Source: Sphingomonas rubra
GTDB lineage: Bacteria > Pseudomonadota > Alphaproteobacteria > Sphingomonadales > Sphingomonadaceae
DNA: 64,000 bases
Reading direction: 5' to 3'
Assembly: GCF_900115745.1 (NCBI RefSeq)
Contig: NZ_FOXP01000005.1
Coordinates: forward strand, 186,001 to 250,000
Below, piece by piece: positions 7,369-36,091 of the stretch (the stretch's first letter is position 1; each line of letters begins with the position of its first letter). The notes beneath the pieces are model-generated. The model worked only from the letters and a program-made list of their open reading frames with translations, had not been told where the DNA came from and ran no database searches. The position numbers and the translations under genes were made by a program.

Positions 7369-9611
7369 TGTTCGAGAAGATCTTCGGCGCGGGCGACACC
7401 AACAGCCTGACCATGAACAAGCCGCATCCCGACAGCCTGCTCGACACGGGCGTGCAGGGCGTGATCTCGCGGCCGATCGACCGGGTGGATGGGCCGCTCA
7501 AGGTATCGGGCACCGCCACCTACGCGGCCGAGTATCAGCTGGACGGACTCGCCCACGGCGTGCTCGTCGGCTCGACGGTCGGCAAGGGGCGCATCGTCTC
7601 GGTCGACGCGGACGCGGTGCTGGGCATGCCCGGCGTGATCGACGTGGTCACCGACTTCGATACCTTCCTGCGCAACGCGCAGCAGGGCGGTGAGACGACC
7701 GCGCCGACGCAGGGCGTGCGCGACGTCGATTATTTCGGCGAGATCGTCGCCATCGTCCTGGCGGAAAGCTTCGAGGAGGCGCGCGCTGCCGCCTACGCGC
7801 TGCCGATCGAATATGAGAAGAAGGAGGGCCAGTACGCCTTTCAGGCGCACCGCACCGAGGGCGAGACCCCGCCCGACAGCGTCACCCCGGCCAAGTTCAC
7901 GCAGGGCGATATCGACCAGGCGATGCGCGACGCGGCGGTGACGGTCGACGTGACCTACGTCACCCCCAGCCAGAATTCCGCGGCGATGGAGCCGCACGCG
8001 TCGATCGCGGTCTGGAACGACGATGCGCTGACGCTCTACGGCGCCTATCAGATGCCGACGTCGGACGCGCAGCAGCTGGCGAAATCACTGGGCGTGTCGG
8101 ACAAGAAGGTCCGCATCATCGCGCGCTACATCGGCGGTGGGTTCGGATCGAAGCTCGGCATCGCGCCGGAGAGCGTCGCGGCCGCGGTGGCGGCCAAGAA
8201 GCTCGGCCGCCCGGTCAAGGCGGTGATGGCGCGCGGCCAAGTGTTCGACGCCACCGTGCGCCGCTCCAACACCGAGCAGCACATGCGGCTCGCTACCGAT
8301 CGCAACGGCCGCCTCACCGCGATCGGCCACGATTCGCTCACCTCCAACCTGCCGGGCGAGGATTATTTCGAGCCCGTCGGCATCGGCACCCACCTGGCCT
8401 ATGCGGGCGAGAACCGGTCGATCACGCACCAGCTGGTGCCGCTCAACCTGACGCTGTCGGGATCGATGCGCGCGCCGGGCGAGGCGGTGGGCATGATCGG
8501 CCTGGAATGCGCGATGGACGAGCTGGCCGAGAAGCTGGGCATGGACCCGATCGAGCTGCGCCGGATCAACGATCCCGCCGTCGATCCCGAGAAGGACGTG
8601 CCCTTCTCGTCGCGCGCGCTGACGCAGTCGCTCGACAAGGGGGCCGAGCTGTTCGGGTGGAACAAGCGCAACGCCATGCCGGGGCAGCGGCGCGAGGGCG
8701 AGTGGCTGATCGGCATGGGCGTCGCCTCCGCGGTGCGCGGCAACCAGTTGCAGCAATCGGCGGCGGGCATCGAGATCCGACCGGACGGAACCGCCACCGT
8801 CGCCTCGGCGATGACCGACATCGGCACCGGCAGCTACACGATCCTGGCGCAGATCGCGTCGGAGATCCTGGGCATCCCGCTCGACAAGATCACCATGAAG
8901 CTGGGCGACACGATCGATCCGCCCGCGGCCGGATCGGGCGGCTCGTGGGGCGCGGCGTCGGCGGGTTCCGCGGTCTATCTCGCCGCCGAGCAGGCGCGCA
9001 AGAAACTGGCGGCGGCGATGGGCGTCGAGGAGGCGGAGCTGACGCTGAAGGACGGCTACGCGATCGGTGACAACCGGCAGGTGCCGATCGGCGAACTCGT
9101 CGGCAGCGGGATCGAGGTCACCGGCGAGATCAAGCCGGGAAGCCAGGAGAAGCAGACGACGCAAGCCTCGTTCGGCTGCCACTTCGCCGAGGTGGGCGTG
9201 AACGCCGTCACCGGCGAGGTGCGCGTGCGGCGGATGCTGGGCGTATTCGCCGCCGGCCGCGTCCTCAACGCCAAGACGGCGCGGTCGCAGTGCCTGGGCG
9301 GCATGACCTTCGGCATCGGCGCGGCGCTGACCGAGGATCTGATCCACGACCAGCGCACCGGCAAGCTCGTTAACCGCGACCTCGCCGAATATCACCTGCC
9401 GGTGAACGCCGACGTGCCGCAGCTGGAGGTACATTTCATCGACGAGCGCGACATCCACGCCAACCCGATCCATGCCAAGGGGATCGGCGAGCTGGGCATC
9501 TCCGGCGCGGCGCCGGCGGTGGTCAACGCGATCTACAACGCGTGCGGCGTGCGCGTGCGCGACATGCCGATCACCTGCGACAAGCTTCTCGCCGGCCTGC
9601 CCCCGATGTGA
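7368..9611 (+). CDS. paoC: Molybdopterin-binding large subunit 1 (PaoC-like)
   Basis: A 747-residue catalytic subunit of the xanthine dehydrogenase family. The N-terminal block ISRPIDRVDGPLKVSGTATY, the Moco-binding stretch IGGGFGSKLG, the loop APGEAVGMIGLECAMDEL and the C-terminal GIGELGISG with the base-catalyst glutamate E708 are all present. It should hydroxylate aldehydes or N-heterocycles with water at a molybdenum centre; PaoC prefers aromatic aldehydes, and the real substrate here is open. The ATG at 7368 overlaps the paoB stop. A tandem paralogue follows after 43 bases, with one 47-base stretch identical in both genes (9198-9244 and 11458-11504). Confidence 0.94.
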
Positions 9612-28267: not shown

Positions 28268-29818
28268 TCAGTCCGCCGCGATCGGCCCGCTCGGCGGTTT
28301 CGGCCGCCGCGTCAGCCAGACGAGCACGATCAGCCCCAGGCACAGCCAGGCCGAGACGCGGAACAGGTCGGTCGAGGCGAGCAGATAGGCCTGCCCCACC
28401 ATCTGCCGCGTGACCGTCGCGGCCGCCTGCGTCTCGTTCAGACCGAGCCCGGCGAGCCCGTCGCGCGCCATCTGCCACGGCACGCCCCTGCCCACCGCCT
28501 CCGACAGGCGGCTCTGGTGCAGCGCCTCGCGCCGGTCCCACGACGTGGTGATGATCGAGGCGGCGAAGCTGCCCGCGGTGATCCGCGCGAAGTTGGAGAT
28601 GCCGGTCGCCGAGGGGATGCGGTTGGGGGCGATGCCGTCCAGCGAGATCGTCACCATCGACAGGAAGAAGGTCGCCATCGCGATCCCCTGCACCAGCAGC
28701 GGCAGCATGAAATCGGTGAAACTGGCATAGGTGGTGTAGCCCGACCGCATCCAGTAGCTCGCTCCGAACGCCAGGAACGACACCGTCGCCAAGATACGCG
28801 CGTCGACCTTGCCCGACAGGCGCGCGACGAACGGCGTCAGCACCACCGCGACGAGGCCGCTCGGCGCCGCCACCAGCCCCGCCCAGGTCGCGGTATAGCC
28901 GAGCTGCGTCTGCAGCCACAGCGGCAGCACCAGCGTGTTGGCGAAGAACACCGCGTAGCCGGCGCAGAAGGCAACCGTGCCGAAGATGAAGTTGCGGCCC
29001 TTGAACAGCGACAGGTCGACGGTCGGATTGGCGTCGGTCAACTCCCAGATCACCCAGGCGACGAAGCCGATCGCGGCGAGCACGAACATCACGACGATGC
29101 GGGTGGAATTGAACCAGTCGTCGTTCTTGCCGAGGTCCAGCGCGACCTGGAGCGAGCCGACCCAGAAGACGAGCAGGATCAGCCCGGCCGTGTCGATCTT
29201 CAGCTTGCGCGTCGGCGTCTCGCGGTCCCGAAGGTTGGTCCAGCACAGGAACGCGCAGGCGACACCGAACGGCAGGTTGATGAGGAAGATCCAGCTCCAA
29301 TGGTAATTGTCGGAGATGAAGCCGCCCAGGATCGGCCCCATGATCGGCGCGACCAGCGTCGTCATCGACCAGATCCCGAGGGCGGTGGAGCGTTTCTGCG
29401 GCGGGAAGATCGAGATCAGCAGCGCCTGGCTGCCCGGGATCATCGGCCCGGACACCGCACCTTGCAGCACGCGAAAGAAGATCAGCGAGGACAGGTTCCA
29501 GGCGATCCCGCACAGGAACGAGGCGAGCGTGAACAGCAGCACCGAGGTGACGAAGGTGCGCACCACCCCGAACCGCCCCATCAGCCAGCCGGTCAGCGGC
29601 ACCGCGACGCCGTTGGCCACGGCGAAGGCGGTGATGATCCAGGTCGAGGTGTCGCTCGACACGCCGAGATTGCCCGCGATCGTCGGCAGGGAAACGTTGG
29701 CGATGGTCGAATCGAGCACCTGCATGAAGGTGCCGAAGGCGAGCGCGACCGCGGTGACGGCGAGTGCGCCGCCCGCCAGCGGCGGCGGACCGCCCTCGGC
29801 CGCGGCGGGGCCGGCCAT
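28268..29818 (-). CDS. emrB: EmrB-type MFS (DHA2) drug exporter
   Basis: A 516-residue, 14-helix major facilitator of the DHA2 family. Visible are the first helix with the DHA2 motif FMQVLDSTIANVSLPTIAGN, motif A (GWLMGRFGVVRTF), motif C (SGPMIPGSQALLISIFPPQ with GPILGGFISDNYHWSWIFLI) and the remaining hydrophobic segments. It exports hydrophobic compounds with proton exchange and, with the adaptor and outer-membrane factor encoded upstream, spans both membranes. The start overlaps the emrA stop by ATGA. The longer open frame upstream is only another reading of emrA. Substrate unknown; the adjacent di-iron/dioxygenase cluster is a plausible source. Confidence 0.94.
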   Translation of the reverse strand: MAGPAAAEGGPPPLAGGALAVTAVALAFGTFMQVLDSTIANVSLPTIAGNLGVSSDTSTWIITAFAVANGVAVPLTGWLMGRFGVVRTFVTSVLLFTLASFLCGIAWNLSSLIFFRVLQGAVSGPMIPGSQALLISIFPPQKRSTALGIWSMTTLVAPIMGPILGGFISDNYHWSWIFLINLPFGVACAFLCWTNLRDRETPTRKLKIDTAGLILLVFWVGSLQVALDLGKNDDWFNSTRIVVMFVLAAIGFVAWVIWELTDANPTVDLSLFKGRNFIFGTVAFCAGYAVFFANTLVLPLWLQTQLGYTATWAGLVAAPSGLVAVVLTPFVARLSGKVDARILATVSFLAFGASYWMRSGYTTYASFTDFMLPLLVQGIAMATFFLSMVTISLDGIAPNRIPSATGISNFARITAGSFAASIITTSWDRREALHQSRLSEAVGRGVPWQMARDGLAGLGLNETQAAATVTRQMVGQAYLLASTDLFRVSAWLCLGLIVLVWLTRRPKPPSGPIAAD

Positions 29819-30987
29819 CAGCGGTTCGCCGCGACGATCTGGCGGATGCGCACTTCCACCTGCGGGTCGTTGGCGGCGGTCGCCAGCGGCGGCGCGAAAC
29901 GGCGTCCCGGCTGGCCGATCCGCGTGCCCGACCGGTCGGCCGTGTCGACCACCGCCGTCACCGACAGGCCGATGCGCAAGGGATTGGCGCGCAGTTCGCG
30001 CGGGTCGAGCATGATCCTGACCGGCACGCGCTGCGTGATCTTGATCCAGTTGCCGCTGGCGTTCTGCGGCGGCAGCAGCGCGAAGGCGTTGCCCGATCCA
30101 GCGCCCAGGCCGACGACGCGGCCGTGATAGACGACCTCGCCGCCGTACATGTCGGCGGTGATCGTCGCCGGCTGGCCGATGCGCAGGTCCTTCAGCTGCG
30201 TCTCGCGGAAATTGGCGTCGACCCACAGCCGGTCGAGCGGCACCACCGCCATCAGCGGCGTGCCGGCGGCGACCTGCTGGCCGATCTGCACGGTGCGCTG
30301 CGCGACCACGCCCCCGACCGGCGCGGTGATGTGCATGTGGCCGGCGGTGATCGCCGCGCGGCGATAGGTGGCGATGGCGGCGAGCACCTGCGGATTGGTG
30401 TCGACCGTCGTCCCCTGCACCGTGTTGCGCGACTGGGCCTGGCGGCTGCGCGCGAGTGCCAGGTTGGCGGCGGCGACGCGGACCTGGTCCTGCGCGTGGC
30501 TCAGTTCCTCGCCCGACACGGCCCCCTCCGCCGCGGCGCCGCGCCGGCGCTGGAGGTCGCCGCGCGCCTCGGCCAGCTGCGCCTCGGCCTGCGTCACCGC
30601 GGCGCCCGTCTCGTCCACCGCGGAGAAGCTGCTGCGGGTGGCGCGCACCGCACGCGCCAGGTCGGCCGCCGCGGTGGCGAGGCCGACATCGGCGGTCGCC
30701 GCATCCAGCTCGATCAGCGGCTGGCCGGCGCGCACCGTCTGCGTGTTGTCGGCCTGGATGGCGATCACCGTGCCGGGATCGCGCGCGGTGATCGCCACCA
30801 CGTTGCCCGCGACATAGGCGTCGTCCGTCTCCTCCTCCGGCGTGGCGAGGAGGAAGTGGAACACCGCCCACACCGCCAGACCGACCAGCACGACCAGCCC
30901 GAGGATCAGCAGCCCGCGACGCCGCGCGCGCGGGTTGCCGGCCGGGGGCGGCGCCACGGAAGCGTCGGAGGCGGGCGTGTCGGTCAT
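29818..30987 (-). CDS. emrA: EmrA-type periplasmic adaptor (HlyD family)
   Basis: A 389-residue membrane fusion protein. One membrane helix (GLLILGLVVLVGLAVWAVFH, about residues 25-46) is followed by the EmrA signature EETDDAYVAGNVVAITA, a long helical hairpin (Ala/Gln/Arg-rich, 100-200) and the second lipoyl half (ITAPVGGVVAQRTVQIGQQV). The beta-barrel part includes DRLWVDANFRETQLKDLRIG, typical for EmrA. It connects EmrB with the NodT-type channel. It overlaps the nodT-like gene upstream by 4 bases and emrB downstream by ATGA, so all three are made from one transcript. Confidence 0.94.
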   Translation of the reverse strand: MTDTPASDASVAPPPAGNPRARRRGLLILGLVVLVGLAVWAVFHFLLATPEEETDDAYVAGNVVAITARDPGTVIAIQADNTQTVRAGQPLIELDAATADVGLATAAADLARAVRATRSSFSAVDETGAAVTQAEAQLAEARGDLQRRRGAAAEGAVSGEELSHAQDQVRVAAANLALARSRQAQSRNTVQGTTVDTNPQVLAAIATYRRAAITAGHMHITAPVGGVVAQRTVQIGQQVAAGTPLMAVVPLDRLWVDANFRETQLKDLRIGQPATITADMYGGEVVYHGRVVGLGAGSGNAFALLPPQNASGNWIKITQRVPVRIMLDPRELRANPLRIGLSVTAVVDTADRSGTRIGQPGRRFAPPLATAANDPQVEVRIRQIVAANR

Positions 30988-32390
30988 CGTGCAAGGTCCT
31001 GTGAAGCGTCGAAGCCGCCGCCGAGCGCCACCGCCAGCCGCACGCGCGCCTGCGCGGCGGCGACGGCGAGCGCGGCATCGGTCTGCTCGGCGTCGAGCGT
31101 GCGAATGTCGTTGTCGACCAGGTCGAGCCGGCTATCGAGCCCGCTCGACGCGCGGATCGCGTTAAGGCGGCCGGTCTCGGCATAGCCGCGCACCACCTCG
31201 CGCTGGCGGGCGCGGTCGGCGGCGAGCGCCTGCACCTGCGCGATGCCATCCGCCGCCTCACGCACCGCGCCGACGACGCGGTCGTTATAGTCGGCGGTGG
31301 CCAGGTCGAGCGCGGCGGCCGCCCCCTCCAGGTCGGCACGGCGCCGACCGCCGTCGAACAGCGGCAGGCTGATCGCGGGGCCGACGCCGACCGTGCCGGC
31401 GTCGAGCGAGAACAGATTGCCGATGCCGACCGCCTGCAATCCGGCGAGCGCGGCGAGGTTGACGTTGGGATAATAGGCGTGGCGCGCGACCTCTCGCCCC
31501 TCCCCCGCGGCGACGATGCGGGCCTGCGCGGCGGCGATGTCGGCGCGCCGGGCGAGCAGGTCGGCGGGTACCGCGGCGGGCAGCGGCAGGCCATTGTCGA
31601 GCCGCACCGCGGTCGGCCGGATGGTGGCCGGATAATCGACGCCGCGCCCAGCCAGCGCGGCGAGCGCGTTCTTCGCCAGCACCGCGTCGCTCCGCGCACG
31701 GACGAGCGACTGCCGCGCCTGGGCGAGCAGCGTCGCCGCCGCCTGCCGATCGAGCTGGCTGGCGAGGCGGTTGCGGATACGCACGTCGACCAGCCGCAGC
31801 GAACCGACACGCGCCTCGATCGTGCGCTGTACGATGCCGGCTTGCGCCTCCGCCCGGACCAGATCGAGATAGGTCGACACCACCGATCCCGCGAGCGCGA
31901 GGCGCGCCGCCGTCAGGTCCAGCGCCGCCGCCGCGGCCGATGCGCGCGCGCCGCGGATCGCCGCGCGCTGGCGGCCGAACAGGTCGAGGTTCCAGCTGAG
32001 ATTGGCCAGCCCGGTGCCGACGAAGCGGGTCGACCCGGCGAAGGGCGGCGGGATGGTGTAACGGCCGCTGAGCCGGGAAAGCTGGCCCTGCGCGTCGAAG
32101 GTCGCTTCCGGCTCGGTCGCGGCGCGCCTGGTCGACAGCACCGCCTGCGCCTGCGCGACGCGGGCGAGCGCGGCGTCGAGCGTCGGGTTGCCGTCCACCG
32201 CGTCGGCCACTAGCCGGTCGAGCTGCGGATCGCCGAAACCGCGCCACCATGCCGGCGCCACGGCGGGCGCGGGGGTGGTGGCGACGAGGCCGAGCGCCGC
32301 CGGCTGCACCGGCGTCACCGCCTGCCGGGTCGCGGGCGCGGCGCAACCGGCGACCAGCGCGGCGAGCGAGGCGGACACGATCAGGCGCAC
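30984..32390 (-). CDS. NodT-family outer-membrane factor of the Emr operon
   Basis: A 468-residue outer-membrane efflux lipoprotein. The start is the GTG at 32390 with CGGAGG five bases upstream; it gives the signal (M)RLIVSASLAALVAGC with lipobox LVAG|C. Two OEP repeats follow (NLSWNLDLFGRQRAAIRGAR and ISLPLFDGGRRRADLEGA). It is clearly different from the NodT protein at 17107, so the window has two independent channels. The start codon overlaps the stop of marR by 10 bases, which places all four genes (marR, nodT, emrA, emrB) in one operon. Confidence 0.92.
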   Translation of the reverse strand: MRLIVSASLAALVAGCAAPATRQAVTPVQPAALGLVATTPAPAVAPAWWRGFGDPQLDRLVADAVDGNPTLDAALARVAQAQAVLSTRRAATEPEATFDAQGQLSRLSGRYTIPPPFAGSTRFVGTGLANLSWNLDLFGRQRAAIRGARASAAAAALDLTAARLALAGSVVSTYLDLVRAEAQAGIVQRTIEARVGSLRLVDVRIRNRLASQLDRQAAATLLAQARQSLVRARSDAVLAKNALAALAGRGVDYPATIRPTAVRLDNGLPLPAAVPADLLARRADIAAAQARIVAAGEGREVARHAYYPNVNLAALAGLQAVGIGNLFSLDAGTVGVGPAISLPLFDGGRRRADLEGAAAALDLATADYNDRVVGAVREAADGIAQVQALAADRARQREVVRGYAETGRLNAIRASSGLDSRLDLVDNDIRTLDAEQTDAALAVAAAQARVRLAVALGGGFDASQDLAR

Positions 32391-32845
32391 GGAACCTCCG
32401 CCGCGGCGAGCGTGCCGCGCAGTTTCTGCAACAGGTCGATCAACCGCTCCACCTCGCCCTCCGGCCAGTCGGCCAGCCACTCGTTCCAGCAGGCGACCAC
32501 CCGCGCCTTGCAGCGCAGCGCCACCGCGACCCCCTCTTCGGTCAGCACCAGACGGATGCAGCGGCGGTCCTCGGTGGTGCGCTCGCGGGTGATCCAGCCG
32601 CGCTCGGCCAACTGGTCGACCAGCCGCGTCATCGCGCCCTTGTCGTGCCCCAGGTCGCGCGCCAGCTCGGCCGCGGTGCCGCCGCGCCCGAACCAGATCG
32701 ACACCAGCGCCTGCCACTGCGTTCCCGTCAGCCCCTCGGCCGCGAACACCGACTCAATCCCCGCGATGCCGAGCTGGTGTACGCGACGCACCAGATAGCC
32801 GATCGAGCGATCGGGGCGGAAATCCGATTCGTCGTAGAAGCCCAT
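32381..32845 (-). CDS. MarR family regulator, first gene of the Emr operon
   Basis: A 154-residue winged-helix protein of the MarR/EmrR type. The recognition region GTAAELARDLGHDKGAMTRL with the wing ERTTEDRRCIRLVLTEEG is characteristic. EmrR-type proteins bind the compounds exported by the pump and release the promoter. The ATG at 32845 (MGFYDESDFRPD) gives the usual length; upstream frame residues are not conserved in kind. The palindrome GGCAACCATTGCC lies 12 bases before the start and is a good candidate operator. The gene is divergent from the first ferritin-like gene, so a single MarR-bound site could control both export and biosynthesis. Confidence 0.9.
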   Translation of the reverse strand: MGFYDESDFRPDRSIGYLVRRVHQLGIAGIESVFAAEGLTGTQWQALVSIWFGRGGTAAELARDLGHDKGAMTRLVDQLAERGWITRERTTEDRRCIRLVLTEEGVAVALRCKARVVACWNEWLADWPEGEVERLIDLLQKLRGTLAAAEVPCA

Positions 32846-32856
32846 TAAGCTGCTTT

Positions 32857-32869
32857 GGCAACCATTGCC
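32857..32869. promoter_or_regulatory. Candidate MarR operator
   Basis: GGCAA-CCA-TTGCC is a perfect 5-base inverted repeat in the 149-base divergent region between marR and the di-iron gene. Size and place fit a MarR-type autoregulatory site; this is a sequence-based guess. Confidence 0.45.
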
Positions 32870-32994
32870 TGGGCAGTCAATATGCGGCGACGCATTCGGA
32901 ACGGCGGCGAAGCGGCTCGAAATTGGATCAACCCGTGCTTGCCCGCGGCGGTGCACCGACGATCGATCCGGCGTTTCTCAGCCGGAGCCTTGCC

Positions 32995-33744
32995 ATGACC
33001 CAGACCCACCTCGCCGCGCCTGCCGCGGTGCCTCTCCCGATCGACGCCGCCGCCCTCCACGCCGAAACGCGCGCGGCGGTGGCGTTGATCGGCCCACGCC
33101 TCTCCGAACCCGTCGGCCGCTGGCGCCGGTTCGTCTATCCCGAGCTGTTCCAGTCGCTCACCCAAGCGATGATCGACGACGACACCGCCCTGCTCCGCCG
33201 TCTGGAGCATCTGTCGAACGAGGAGGGCTGCGGTGCCGAGATCATCCGCGGCTTCGCCGACCGGCCGCCGCTCGCCGCCTACGCCAAGGGCTTCCACCGC
33301 CACGCCGACGACGAGATCGCGCACCAGCGCCGCTACGCCGGGCTGGCCGTCGAGCTGGCGGCGCGCGTCGGTGCGCCCGCGCCGCGCCTGCACGACACCG
33401 ATCCGGAAGCCGATCTCGGCATCGATTTCGACGCCGAGCTGCACGAGCTGGTGCTGTCGATCCACCTGGGCGAGCTGCGCAACCTGATGAACATGGACCT
33501 GATGATCCCCCCGCTGCTCGCCGCGGAGGACGAGGGTCGCCGCCGGATCGGCGCCGCCATGCTGCCGATCCGCGCCGACGAGATCGAGCACATCCGCTAT
33601 CTCTCGCGCATCGTGAACGGCTTTCTCGACCAGGGCCTGTTCGACCAGGCCAAGGTGGATGCGCTGGCCGCGGCGTACGACCGTTTCTGGTGGGCCGATA
33701 TCGCCCGCGTCGCGACGCAGCTGGGCGGCGAACAGGCCGCCTGA
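32995..33744 (+). CDS. Ferritin-like di-iron protein, paralogue A
   Basis: A 249-residue, almost all-helical protein with the four-helix di-iron pattern E...ExxH...E...ExxH: E77 (NEEGCGAE), E107/H110 (DDEIAHQRRY), E160 (HLGELRNLMN) and E196/H199 (ADEIEHIRYL). The spacing is nearly the same in the protein encoded at 33962, so the two are paralogues. Such sites activate oxygen in oxidases, N-oxygenases and desaturases. The ATG at 32995 has GGAG in front; 24 more residues are open upstream. It is divergent from marR and ends with a terminator-like hairpin, so it may be a separate transcript. I do not recognise a named family with certainty. Confidence 0.75.
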   Translation: MTQTHLAAPAAVPLPIDAAALHAETRAAVALIGPRLSEPVGRWRRFVYPELFQSLTQAMIDDDTALLRRLEHLSNEEGCGAEIIRGFADRPPLAAYAKGFHRHADDEIAHQRRYAGLAVELAARVGAPAPRLHDTDPEADLGIDFDAELHELVLSIHLGELRNLMNMDLMIPPLLAAEDEGRRRIGAAMLPIRADEIEHIRYLSRIVNGFLDQGLFDQAKVDALAAAYDRFWWADIARVATQLGGEQAA

Positions 33745-33757
33745 GCCTTCCTAGTCG

Positions 33758-33775
33758 CCTCGAAAATCGAGGTTT
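33758..33775 (+). terminator. Terminator-like hairpin after di-iron gene A
   Basis: CCTCGA-AAA-TCGAGG followed by TTT, 13 bases after the stop codon of the di-iron gene. The stem is short (6 bp) but perfect, and the T tract is brief, so termination may be partial. Confidence 0.5.
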
Positions 33776-33852
33776 CTCGGATCGACCGCCATCGCCTCGA
33801 CCCTAACATGGCGGGCGGCGGACAGCGGGTCCGTCGATCGAGGAGCACCATC

Positions 33853-33909
33853 ATGACCGATGCCAACGACCAGAACCTGCCACGCACGCGCTGGGTCTGG
33901 CCCTTCTGA
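33853..33909 (+). CDS. 18-residue peptide, candidate modified-peptide precursor
   Basis: The ORF encodes MTDANDQNLPRTRWVWPF and stops with TGA. It has AGGAG seven bases before the ATG, the best ribosome binding site in this neighbourhood. It stands 52 bases before the second di-iron gene and in line with the dioxygenase gene. The N-terminal part is polar like a leader (TDANDQN); the C-terminus is aromatic and basic (RTRWVWPF) like a core for oxidative tailoring. The gene-next-to-oxygenases layout recalls very small RiPP precursors such as biarylitides, but no RRE domain, peptidase, radical SAM or P450 is present. A Trp-codon leader peptide is the alternative. Coding is inferred from position and ribosome binding site only. 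Confidence 0.5.
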   Translation: MTDANDQNLPRTRWVWPF

Positions 33910-33918
33910 CCGACCGGG

Positions 33919-33940
33919 CGGCACCGCGCACACGGTGCCG
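33919..33940 (+). promoter_or_regulatory. Hairpin between peptide ORF and di-iron gene B
   Basis: CGGCACCG-CGCACA-CGGTGCCG is a perfect 8-bp stem starting 9 bases after the peptide stop codon. There is no T run behind it, so it is not a standard terminator. It could protect the upstream part of a processed transcript, which would raise peptide over enzyme expression, or take part in attenuation. Confidence 0.6.
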
Positions 33941-33961
33941 TCCAACCGACGGAGTTTCGCC

Positions 33962-34696
33962 ATGTACGCCGCACCGCCACCCGCGCCCGAGCGCCACGAC
34001 GATCCGATGGCCGCCTGGCTGGCGGAGGCCGCGCCTGCGGGGCCGGCGGGCGACGCCTATCGCCGTTGCCTGGGCGAGGCGCTGGCCGCCGCGCCCGACT
34101 GGCAGGCCGCTTGGGCGCCGCTGATCGCCGCGCAGTTCGCGCGCCCCGCGATCCTCGCCGCCGAATTCTACCGCCATTCCGCGACGGAGGGCATCGGCGC
34201 CTCCACCATCGCGCTGGTCGCCGGGCAATGTGCCGATCCCGCGCTCGCCGCCGCCATGGCCGCGCACGCGCGCGACGAGGAGCGCCATTGCCGCATGTTC
34301 GACGCCCTGGCGCGCCACCTGGCGCCGGCCGAACCCAACCGCTTCGCCGACCTGCACGCGGACAACGACGCGTTTCTGGCTAGCTTCGGCGGCGACGTCG
34401 ACTGGTTCCTGTGCGACACGCACATCGCCGAACTGCGCAACCTGGTGCTGCTCGGCCTCTACGTCCGCGCCGCCGAGGCCGCCGACGCCGAACCCTATGT
34501 GCGCCGCTCGCTGGAGCGGATCTTCGACGACGAGTGGCGCCACGTCGCCTACACCGCGCCGCTGGTCGCCGCCGTGATCGCCCGCGGCGAGGCCGATCGC
34601 ACCGAATTCGCCGCCACCGTCACCGCCTATGCCGACGCGGCGATGGCGGACGCCGCCCGCATCCGACACGACCTGGAGGAACCCCGACATGCTTGA
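33962..34696 (+). CDS. Ferritin-like di-iron protein, paralogue B
   Basis: A 244-residue helical protein with the same di-iron pattern as the gene at 32995: E76 (HSATEGIGA), E106/H109 (RDEERHCRMF), E157 (THIAELRNLV) and E191/H194 (DDEWRHVAYT). The shared block is HxxELRNL plus DExxH. The two proteins could form a heterodimer or act on successive steps. The N-terminus is Pro-rich and probably flexible. The gene follows the peptide ORF and overlaps the dioxygenase gene by 8 bases, with a ribosome binding site inside its own 3' end, so B and the dioxygenase are coupled. The exact reaction is unknown; oxygen activation is inferred from the ligand set. Confidence 0.75.
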   Translation: MYAAPPPAPERHDDPMAAWLAEAAPAGPAGDAYRRCLGEALAAAPDWQAAWAPLIAAQFARPAILAAEFYRHSATEGIGASTIALVAGQCADPALAAAMAAHARDEERHCRMFDALARHLAPAEPNRFADLHADNDAFLASFGGDVDWFLCDTHIAELRNLVLLGLYVRAAEAADAEPYVRRSLERIFDDEWRHVAYTAPLVAAVIARGEADRTEFAATVTAYADAAMADAARIRHDLEEPRHA

Positions 34697-35540
34697 CCAG
34701 ACCAGCAACCGCGCCGGCTACGTCGCCGATGGCGTCCGCGTCGTGCCAAAAGTGCTCGCGCCCGCGCAGATCGTGCGTTTGCGCGCCGCGGTGGAGGACA
34801 TCGTCGCGCAGGCGCCCGTGGTCCGCGACGGCGTCACCCCCTATTTCGCCGCCGACGGGACGCAGGCGGTCGCCTATGACGGCGGCTATTACGTCGAGTA
34901 CCTGTCGCGCAACGCGCCGCGGCTGGCCGCGCTGCTCGGCGAGTCGGCGCTGCCGTCGCTCGCGTGCGAGCTGCTCGGCTGCGATGAGGTCATGTTCTGG
35001 CGCGACGAGATCCATTACAAGAACCCGGCGAGCAGCGGCAACGCGACGCCGTGGCACCACGGCGTCGGTTCCTTCCCGTTCAAGGGAGAGGACGCGCTGA
35101 CGCTGTGGCTGCCGCTGACCGATGTGGGGCCGGACAGCGGGCCGCTGCTGACCGTTGCCGATACGCACCGCGACACCGGCTTCCGCTACCGCCCGCCGAC
35201 CCGCTCGCCCGCGGCCGGAGACGACGGCAGCGCGTACCGGACGATCCCGGATTTCGACGCGGAGGCGGCGGCGGGCCGCTGCCGCATCGATCGCTGGACC
35301 ATGCGCGCGGGCACCGCGCTCGGCTTTCACCCCTACACCGTCCACGGCTCGCTGCCCAACCGTGCCGAGACGCCGCGCATCGCCTATGTCAGCCGCTGGC
35401 TGGGCCGGGACGCGCGCTACGCGCCCGACATGTACAGCGTGCTGGAACCCGGCATCGATCCCGCCGCGCTGAAGGACGGGCTTCCCGACAGCCCGCTCTT
35501 TCCGCGCTTCGGCCGGGCGGGCCTGGACACGTCGACCTGA
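34689..35540 (+). CDS. Phytanoyl-CoA dioxygenase-family protein with HxG iron motif
   Basis: A 283-residue PhyH-fold protein. The distal iron histidine and the 2-oxoglutarate arginine are in FHPYTVHGSLPNRAETPRIA (H219, R230), as in PhyH enzymes. The proximal motif, normally HxD in a context like PWHQD, reads TPWHHGVGSFP: H123-x-G125. Loss of the carboxylate is the hallmark of Fe/2-oxoglutarate halogenases (SyrB2, WelO5), where chloride takes the free site; it could also mean another chemistry or lost activity. GGAGG before 34689 supports this start. The gene is coupled to di-iron gene B and converges with a MarR gene four bases beyond its stop. Confidence 0.82.
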   Translation: MLDQTSNRAGYVADGVRVVPKVLAPAQIVRLRAAVEDIVAQAPVVRDGVTPYFAADGTQAVAYDGGYYVEYLSRNAPRLAALLGESALPSLACELLGCDEVMFWRDEIHYKNPASSGNATPWHHGVGSFPFKGEDALTLWLPLTDVGPDSGPLLTVADTHRDTGFRYRPPTRSPAAGDDGSAYRTIPDFDAEAAAGRCRIDRWTMRAGTALGFHPYTVHGSLPNRAETPRIAYVSRWLGRDARYAPDMYSVLEPGIDPAALKDGLPDSPLFPRFGRAGLDTST

Positions 35541-35544
35541 CGCG

Positions 35545-36006
35545 TCAGGCCGCGCGGTCGATCATCCGGCGCATCAGCAGCTCGACCTTCTCGCGCGCGG
35601 GCGCGCTCAGCTTGATGAAGCTGCGCCGCCCGTCGTCGCGGTCGCGCTCGCGAACCAGCAATCCGTCGCGCTCCAGCATCCGGATCCAGCGCAGCGCCGT
35701 GGTGGTGGGCACGCCGGAGGCGATGCACAGGCTGGACACCGCGACGTGCCGCCCGGCGACCTGCGCGAGATACAGGTCGAGCAGCATGTCCCAGGCCGGC
35801 TCGGCGAGCAGTTCGGGCCCGAGCACCAGCCGCCGGTCGGTGCGGCGCCGCACCTCCTCGCGCGCCGCGGTGACCAGCTCGTTGTCCGCCGGCGGCTCGA
35901 CGCTCGCCGCCCGTGCGCCGTTGCCCTGCTGCCCGCCCTCGATCAGCCGCAACGTCCCGGCTTCCGCCAGCAACGGCCGCCACGATCCATAAACCCCTTC
36001 GCGCAT
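35545..36006 (-). CDS. MarR-like winged-helix regulator
   Basis: A 153-residue protein whose C-terminal half is a winged helix: VSSLCIASGVPTTTALRWIR as the recognition region and LLVRERDRDDGRRSFIKLSA as the wing. The N-terminal 50 residues (YGSWRPLLAEAGTLRLIEGG) are not typical of MarR proteins, so a sensing part may be there. The start at 36006 gives MREGVYGSW; an in-frame start 45 bases upstream is possible. It converges with the dioxygenase gene with a 4-base gap, so antisense read-through could link their expression. It may be a second regulator of the di-iron/dioxygenase cluster, but its target is unknown. Confidence 0.82.
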   Translation of the reverse strand: MREGVYGSWRPLLAEAGTLRLIEGGQQGNGARAASVEPPADNELVTAAREEVRRRTDRRLVLGPELLAEPAWDMLLDLYLAQVAGRHVAVSSLCIASGVPTTTALRWIRMLERDGLLVRERDRDDGRRSFIKLSAPAREKVELLMRRMIDRAA

Positions 36007-36091
36007 GATCGTCCCCCACCGACGCCTTCCGAGGTCGTCGCTCCGGAACACAGACGCGCGCGACCGCGACGGCCCTCACGCTTTTTTTCGA

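Follow-up and report, generated by a model that had tools for sequence, protein, structure and literature searches.

A cassette made of three oxidative enzyme genes and one very short open reading frame (ORF) was analysed in Sphingomonas rubra, within a 64-kb stretch of DNA that is referred to below as the window. The cassette is carried on contig C14 of the 3.2 Mb genome (G000), lies entirely in this window and reads on the plus strand in the order A, 18-codon ORF, B, X, A and B each being a di-iron protein of the ferritin-like type and X an iron and 2-oxoglutarate (Fe/2OG) dependent enzyme. This arrangement is interpreted tentatively, with a likelihood just below an even chance, as a genome-specific oxidative, probably halogenating, biosynthetic cassette placed beside a separate efflux module. 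A preliminary description of the same DNA had seen in it a peptide-modification system served by that pump; all that it listed was recovered: the genes with their coordinates, the ligand residues, the Shine-Dalgarno site and the HxG motif.

The first line of evidence is X itself (34689-35540, plus strand, 283 aa), which belongs to the PhyH family with a Pfam E-value of 9.5e-21. Its first iron-binding histidine lies in the stretch PWHHGVG; the iron ligands are H123 and H219, the 2OG-binding arginine is R230, and G125 stands at the position usually held by an aspartate. The HxG dioxygenase of the preliminary description is borne out, since X has H123-x-G125 with both histidines and the arginine retained. 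In the published material available on Fe/2OG (alpha-ketoglutarate) halogenases, the replacement of Asp by Gly or Ala at this iron-ligand position (HxG/A) is given as their mark, and the D-to-G exchange as the step switching the mechanism in plant DAH (PMC11186838, PMC12346261). X shows this change of the facial-triad Asp/Glu into Gly/Ala with both histidines kept, by which Fe/2OG radical halogenases are recognised. The exchange is peculiar to X. Among 59 PhyH loci collected by the genus and class searches, three (L057, L115 and L117) were dropped because no ORF matched, and in the 56 aligned homologues thus obtained the position of G125 is always an Asp, Gly being found in X alone; H123, H219 and R230 are kept in all 56. 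Moreover, the residues that follow HxG in X read VGSFPF, where the homologues commonly show QPYYP- or LPYWP-like stretches, and this further deviation makes a lone random error at G125 less likely. X shares 33-36% identity with its best five matches in the genus. Among its 10 PDB sequence matches (E up to 10) no chain is named BesD, WelO5, AdaV or SyrB2, and CurA (E 0.033; PDB 3nnf, its halogenase domain) is the sole match whose name points to a protein bearing a halogenase.

The second line of evidence is provided by the pair of di-iron proteins. A (32995-33744, plus strand, 249 aa) carries E77, H103-xx-D106-E107-xx-H110, E160 and D195-E196-xx-H199, and its paralogue B (33962-34696, plus strand, 244 aa) carries E76, H102-xx-D105-E106-xx-H109, E157 and D190-E191-xx-H194; the two complete ligand sets (E...ExxH...E...ExxH) that had been claimed for them are indeed in place. 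The two proteins share 29% identity across 151 aligned columns (E 2e-6), or 30% in a second alignment. When A and B are aligned with three distant relatives found in G089, G145 and G317, doubtful matches from G185 and G239 being left out, the metal ligands to which the preliminary description had drawn attention prove invariant in all five rows. The complete list of invariant residues, in B numbering, is E76, G77, A80, H102, D105, E106, H109, E157, A170, D190, E191, H194 and Y197. It includes a third histidine, H102, beyond the 2His/4Glu set, which is spaced i, i+4, i+7 with E106 and H109 and so forms the motif HxxDExxH. This extra invariant histidine suggests an AurF-like N-oxygenation over a plain hydroxylation. 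In A and B it belongs to the second helix of the bundle, a location that could fit through the pseudo-symmetry of the bundle.

In the AlphaFold model of B (predicted local distance difference test, pLDDT, 76.5) all four ligand stretches are found on long helices, and in that of A (pLDDT 79.3) three of the four. With VIA-align, the first rank for B is TenA (Z 15.1), followed by the aldehyde-deformylating oxygenase 8fhc (Z 15.0, root-mean-square deviation (rmsd) 3.7, 197 aligned), the latter being ranked first for A (Z 15.4, rmsd 3.8, 194 aligned). MiaE, the N-oxygenase HrmI and bacterioferritins are also among the structural matches listed for these models, together with UndA and PqqC. On the basis of the models, the fold class of A and B, a ferritin-like helical bundle, is fairly clear, and the subfamily is not; B touches the Pfam family AurF weakly.

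Several observations weigh against the halogenating reading. The codon of G125 is known from one draft assembly, and the passage from GAC to GGC is a single base. X touches one halogenase model, the TIGR01762 model of chlorinating enzymes, with 20.1 bits against a cut-off of 226.3, and its closest solved relative is a hydroxylase, MysH (51 bits, E 1.1e-12); an HxG enzyme may instead hydroxylate, desaturate or lack activity. As for the di-iron proteins, helix 63-76 of the AlphaFold model of A is followed by a break of four residues that contains E77, the best Foldseek E-values are 0.088 for B and 0.029 for A, and Z-scores of 13-15 are not decisive for helical bundles. B scores 19.9 bits against Pfam AurF, below the cut-off of 29.6, A is without any Pfam match, and the role given to the third histidine is deduced from its spacing. 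The missed TIGR01762 cut-off and the proximity of MysH have, however, a second consequence: because of them, X looks like an independent switch from a hydroxylase to a halogenase-type enzyme.

The mechanism that would follow can be outlined. A and B would activate O2 at their di-iron sites and act one after the other on a single substrate, oxidising it at an amine or a C-H position. X would bind Fe(II), 2OG and a halide, the latter in the site vacated by the aspartate; its ferryl species would then abstract a hydrogen from an sp3 carbon, onto which chlorine (or another anion) would rebound. The product would be a small N-oxygenated, probably halogenated metabolite. The substrate could be a free metabolite, as lysine is for BesD, or the 18-residue peptide, the free metabolite being considered somewhat more likely; in that case the short ORF would act as a leader in front of B or would be a minor ORF. 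The reading frames of B and X overlap by 8 nt and are therefore probably co-transcribed, while the intergenic gap between A and B measures 217 nt. The G+C content of A, B and X (0.709-0.739) resembles that of the window (0.712), and so does the G+C content at third codon positions; the composition thus gives no hint of a recent foreign origin. Among the ORFs of the 26-42 kb region, seven of whose proteins were scanned with Pfam, none could be recognised as an enzyme able to make a scaffold (non-ribosomal peptide synthetase, polyketide synthase or ligase). Paired di-iron oxygenases accompanied by X and by no recognised scaffold-building gene would point to a short and so far undescribed pathway. 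If X does halogenate, it would represent a natural D-to-G switch within the PhyH hydroxylases, apparently apart from the described halogenase families, and would offer both an insight into the change from hydroxylase to halogenase and an additional catalyst for C-H functionalisation.

The specificity of the cassette to this genome is the outcome of searches at several taxonomic levels. No orthologue of the whole A-ORF-B-X arrangement was detected in the searched genomes, contigs, plasmids and viral contigs. For A and B, the only match among 61 relatives (1/61) is the genome itself. No orthologue was found in 295 genomes of the genus, where the six matches are the own genome and five weak ones (at most nine candidates scored per genome), nor in 396 genomes of the order (seven matches, the own genome and six weak ones; at most six candidates scored) or 385 genomes of the class (three matches, the own genome and two weak fragments; at most seven candidates scored). 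Plasmids and viral contigs, the phage collection lying outside the search, contain no orthologue of A or B either, and none of X turned up in the viral contigs. A scan of the contigs of about 85,000 species with peptide patterns returned 385 stretches, none of which harbours a relative of A or B, and a second scan of these contigs with a DNA motif for H-x-x-ELRNL returned 33 stretches, with a best TBLASTN E-value of 0.075 for A or B; such scans require near-exact short stretches, so that diverged orthologues can escape them, and records of the own or very near genomes were possibly excluded. The three full-length homologues of G089, G145 and G317 have 25-26% identity and are not accompanied by a second di-iron copy in the 19 kb taken around them; G937, from the order survey, holds another single di-iron member. 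TBLASTN detects no match of A or B in the 12 kb taken around the two weak class matches, nor in seven regions surrounding PhyH relatives of X, each of which does contain its PhyH match. Judging from these sequence comparisons, the cassette is apparently unique to this genome among those searched.

The surroundings of the distant homologues present features of their own. In G145 (L011:7916-10629), the single di-iron homologue of B adjoins a divergent radical S-adenosylmethionine/SPASM protein, and this combination may be a hint of peptide modification. In G317 (L012:10791-12692), an ORF near the homologue matches 2Fe-2S domains together with the Pfam family Ferritin-like PF12902, which is an unusual combination. 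In G089 (L010:8183-9591), a well-scoring 215-aa ORF (8183-8830, minus strand), to which no family is assigned, shares 4 nt with the homologue, and a thioredoxin domain occurs further downstream in another frame.

The 18-codon ORF, MTDANDQNLPRTRWVWPF (33853-33909, plus strand), lies between A and B. The strong AGGAG site attributed to it is present as GAGGAG, seven bases 5' of the ATG, in the region that separates it from A (33745-33852, plus strand) and that contains inverted repeats. Its codon score is 5.0 bits, as compared with 8.1 +/- 6.1 for the genes of the window, and is the best of the six frames at this place. Of the 17-codon stretches of window genes, 77% score at least as high in their true frame; the share falls to 5% and 0.4% in the two other forward frames, and to 23%, 15% and 0% when the three reverse frames are read. 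When the 217-nt gap is shuffled with its dinucleotides preserved, 28 of 1000 sequences contain an ORF of 10-60 codons led by a Shine-Dalgarno site, and the G+C content of the short ORF, 0.63, is below that of the neighbouring genes. This moderate evidence indicates that the ORF is probably, without certainty, translated.

An 18-residue product of this kind could be the precursor of a system related to the ribosomally synthesised and post-translationally modified peptides (RiPPs), with MTDANDQNLPRTR as hydrophilic leader and WVWPF as aromatic core, the latter being oxidised and halogenated by A, B and X and released by cleavage after Arg. Such a system is possible, if on the whole unlikely. Its attraction lies in the Shine-Dalgarno site and gene-like codons of an ORF inserted in an operon between two enzymes, in the presence of three oxidative enzymes with no other scaffold recognised, and in precursors as short as five residues in the biarylitides, according to the part of the literature available on them (PMC13417212). 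It is weakened by the isolation of the ORF. A search for the tail pattern in the 295 same-genus genomes yielded no homologue: W-[F/L/I/M/V]-W-P-F-stop was found in two of them, this genome and one site antisense to another gene, and the reversed control pattern was matched more often, so that one extra match is unsurprising. Scanning of seven proteins with Pfam and NCBIfam did not reveal a leader-recognition domain, a peptidase or a peptide exporter in A, B or X, although a leader-recognition domain, a protease or a dedicated exporter is not obligatory in every RiPP. The most ambitious form of the proposal, a new class of ribosomal peptide in which two di-iron oxygenases of AurF-like type would oxidise the Trp-Val-Trp-Pro-Phe tail and an HxG Fe/2OG enzyme of independent evolutionary origin would chlorinate it on an sp3 carbon, has a slim chance of being correct; a peptide substrate, if true, would nevertheless mean a new RiPP class. 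Near the di-iron homologue of G089, an ORF led by a Shine-Dalgarno site and ending in WTW was considered as a possible counterpart and rejected: its codon score is negative, it is placed out of frame within an ORF that scores better, and it gives no support to a peptide precursor.

The RNA of the gap bears on this question and on a further one. Directly after the stop of the short ORF lies a hairpin (33916-33943, plus strand) with 11-nt arms, 91% complementary, and a 6-nt loop. Hairpins are frequent between precursor and enzyme genes, which would suit a precursor role. The gap might alternatively harbour a regulatory leader, in which translation of the short ORF would control B and X. In the predicted fold, positions 33949-33953, inside the ribosome-binding site of B, pair with 33830-33834 upstream of the short ORF (mean unpaired probability 0.21); the fold has a z-score of -1.96, an equally good folding being obtained in 8 of 200 shuffles, and the 217-nt gap is long, given that B and X overlap by 8 nt. 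Such a control is nonetheless clearly unlikely: the support from structure is weak, there are no relatives for comparison, and no U tract was found at the hairpin. A ribosome-stalling model of this RNA found no support, since constrained folding freed the B site in none of the four modelled cases in which stretches of the ORF were blocked, all of which left 33830-33834 uncovered. The idea of a trp attenuator copied from a trpE leader was rejected, no W-rich leader ORF being seen in the 700 nt before trpE. The hairpin and the pairing of the B site, as modelled, fit a precursor gene and a leader ORF alike, if weakly.

The preliminary description had assigned the export of the product to the divergent EmrAB-NodT pump, a proposal that is weakened by the distribution of this pump. 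The regulator MarR1 (32381-32845, minus strand) is divergent from the cassette and heads a MarR-NodT-EmrA-EmrB module, of which the pump genes occupy 28268-32420 on the minus strand (the NodT start is approximate). Of 15 genomes searched, seven give a MarR1 match at E 1e-20, namely its own and six of nine same-genus relatives, and none of the five from other genera does; G002, G003 and G004 are the same-genus relatives without a match. Synteny was inspected in five of the six matching relatives (G001, G005, G006, G008 and G009, G007 being left out), and MarR1, NodT, EmrA and EmrB occur together in all five, with identities of 47-56%, 61-71%, 71-74% and 77-80%, respectively. At a threshold of E 1e-8, the 10-13 kb taken around the module in these relatives contain none of the three cassette proteins A, B and X. 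The region upstream of MarR1 (32850-32885) is conserved too: it comprises the palindrome GGCAACCATTGCC at 32857-32869 and, adjoining it on the minus strand, TTGACTGCC, and the arrangement TTGACTGCC-nn-[G/T]GCAA-nnn-TTGCC is found here and in all five inspected relatives (L140-L144). It is a promising candidate for the MarR operator of a pump that is common in the genus. Because the same four genes and the operator recur without A, B and X, the MarR-NodT-EmrAB group is, as far as such comparisons tell, a separate module with its own control, common without being universal. By the same comparisons, the cassette arrived or arose beside this module; proximity is no evidence for export of its product, though the pump may still be used, and membership of the pump in the cassette is unsupported.

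This distribution also counts against the RiPP-like system. It bears equally on a last alternative, in which an aromatic or antibiotic compound entering the cell would be oxidised by A, B and X, in the vicinity of a drug pump and a pair of MarR regulators. The neighbourhood of MarR and EmrAB-NodT would suit such a detoxification, but the pump module is found without the cassette in five relatives and a halogenase-type dyad is unexpected in a detoxifying hydroxylase, which makes it very improbable. The second MarR-like regulator (35545-36051, minus strand) is convergent with X, and its winged-helix match is restricted to residues 95-157 of 168.

The biosynthetic cassette favoured here can finally be placed among known systems. 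The preliminary description knew of no class with this enzyme set, and no counterpart was indeed found in the open-licence literature, as far as its accessible portions extend. This literature yielded no report of RiPPs associated with diiron ferritin-like or halogenase enzymes; by titles and abstracts, the diiron RiPP enzymes it covers are of the MNIO/DUF692 or MbnBC types, or the subject of reviews, and no Fe/2OG halogenase acting on a RiPP appears by title or abstract. To our knowledge, no Fe/2OG or di-iron halogenation of a RiPP has been described. Biarylitides and other RiPPs with minimal precursors resemble the cassette by a very short ORF beside oxidative enzymes, as described in the portion of text available (PMC13417212), but biarylitides use P450s, none of which was recognised in the cassette.

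The ferritin-like diiron enzymes with gene clusters in the accessible part of this literature include AetD, CylC/NocO and Dob3. The aldehyde-deformylating oxygenase and MiaE, among the best structural alignments of A and B, show 10-17% identity in the rows displayed and no known chemistry in common with them. The N-oxygenases AurF, CmlI and Dob3 and the di-iron halogenases CylC and NocO are ferritin-like, with ExxH motifs as in A and B. AurF and CylC are longer than A and B (about 245 aa). The third histidine of AurF also belongs to an HxxDExxH motif, on the fourth helix, whereas that of A and B is on the second. With respect to CylC, for which the motif pair is QExxH and HxxDExxH, A and B possess HxxDExxH and have D instead of Q before both ExxH. 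In the parts of the papers available, a 3His/4carboxylate site is given for AurF and the HxxDExxH motif for homologues of CylC (PMC12101540), and the Dob3 cluster includes a regulator and a major facilitator superfamily pump (PMC13061610). MysH and human PhyH are family relatives of X that keep HxD in printed alignments, where X has HxG. The Fe/2OG halogenases SyrB2, WelO5, BesD, AdaV and DAH, on the other hand, possess like X a His-x-Gly/Ala in place of His-x-Asp, with the distal histidine and the 2OG arginine kept, even if X is not close to them by the TIGR01762 and CurA scores given above. The substrates of WelO5, BesD, AdaV and DAH, among these enzymes, are alkaloids, amino acids and nucleotides, as opposed to carrier-bound ones, according to the available text (PMC11186838).

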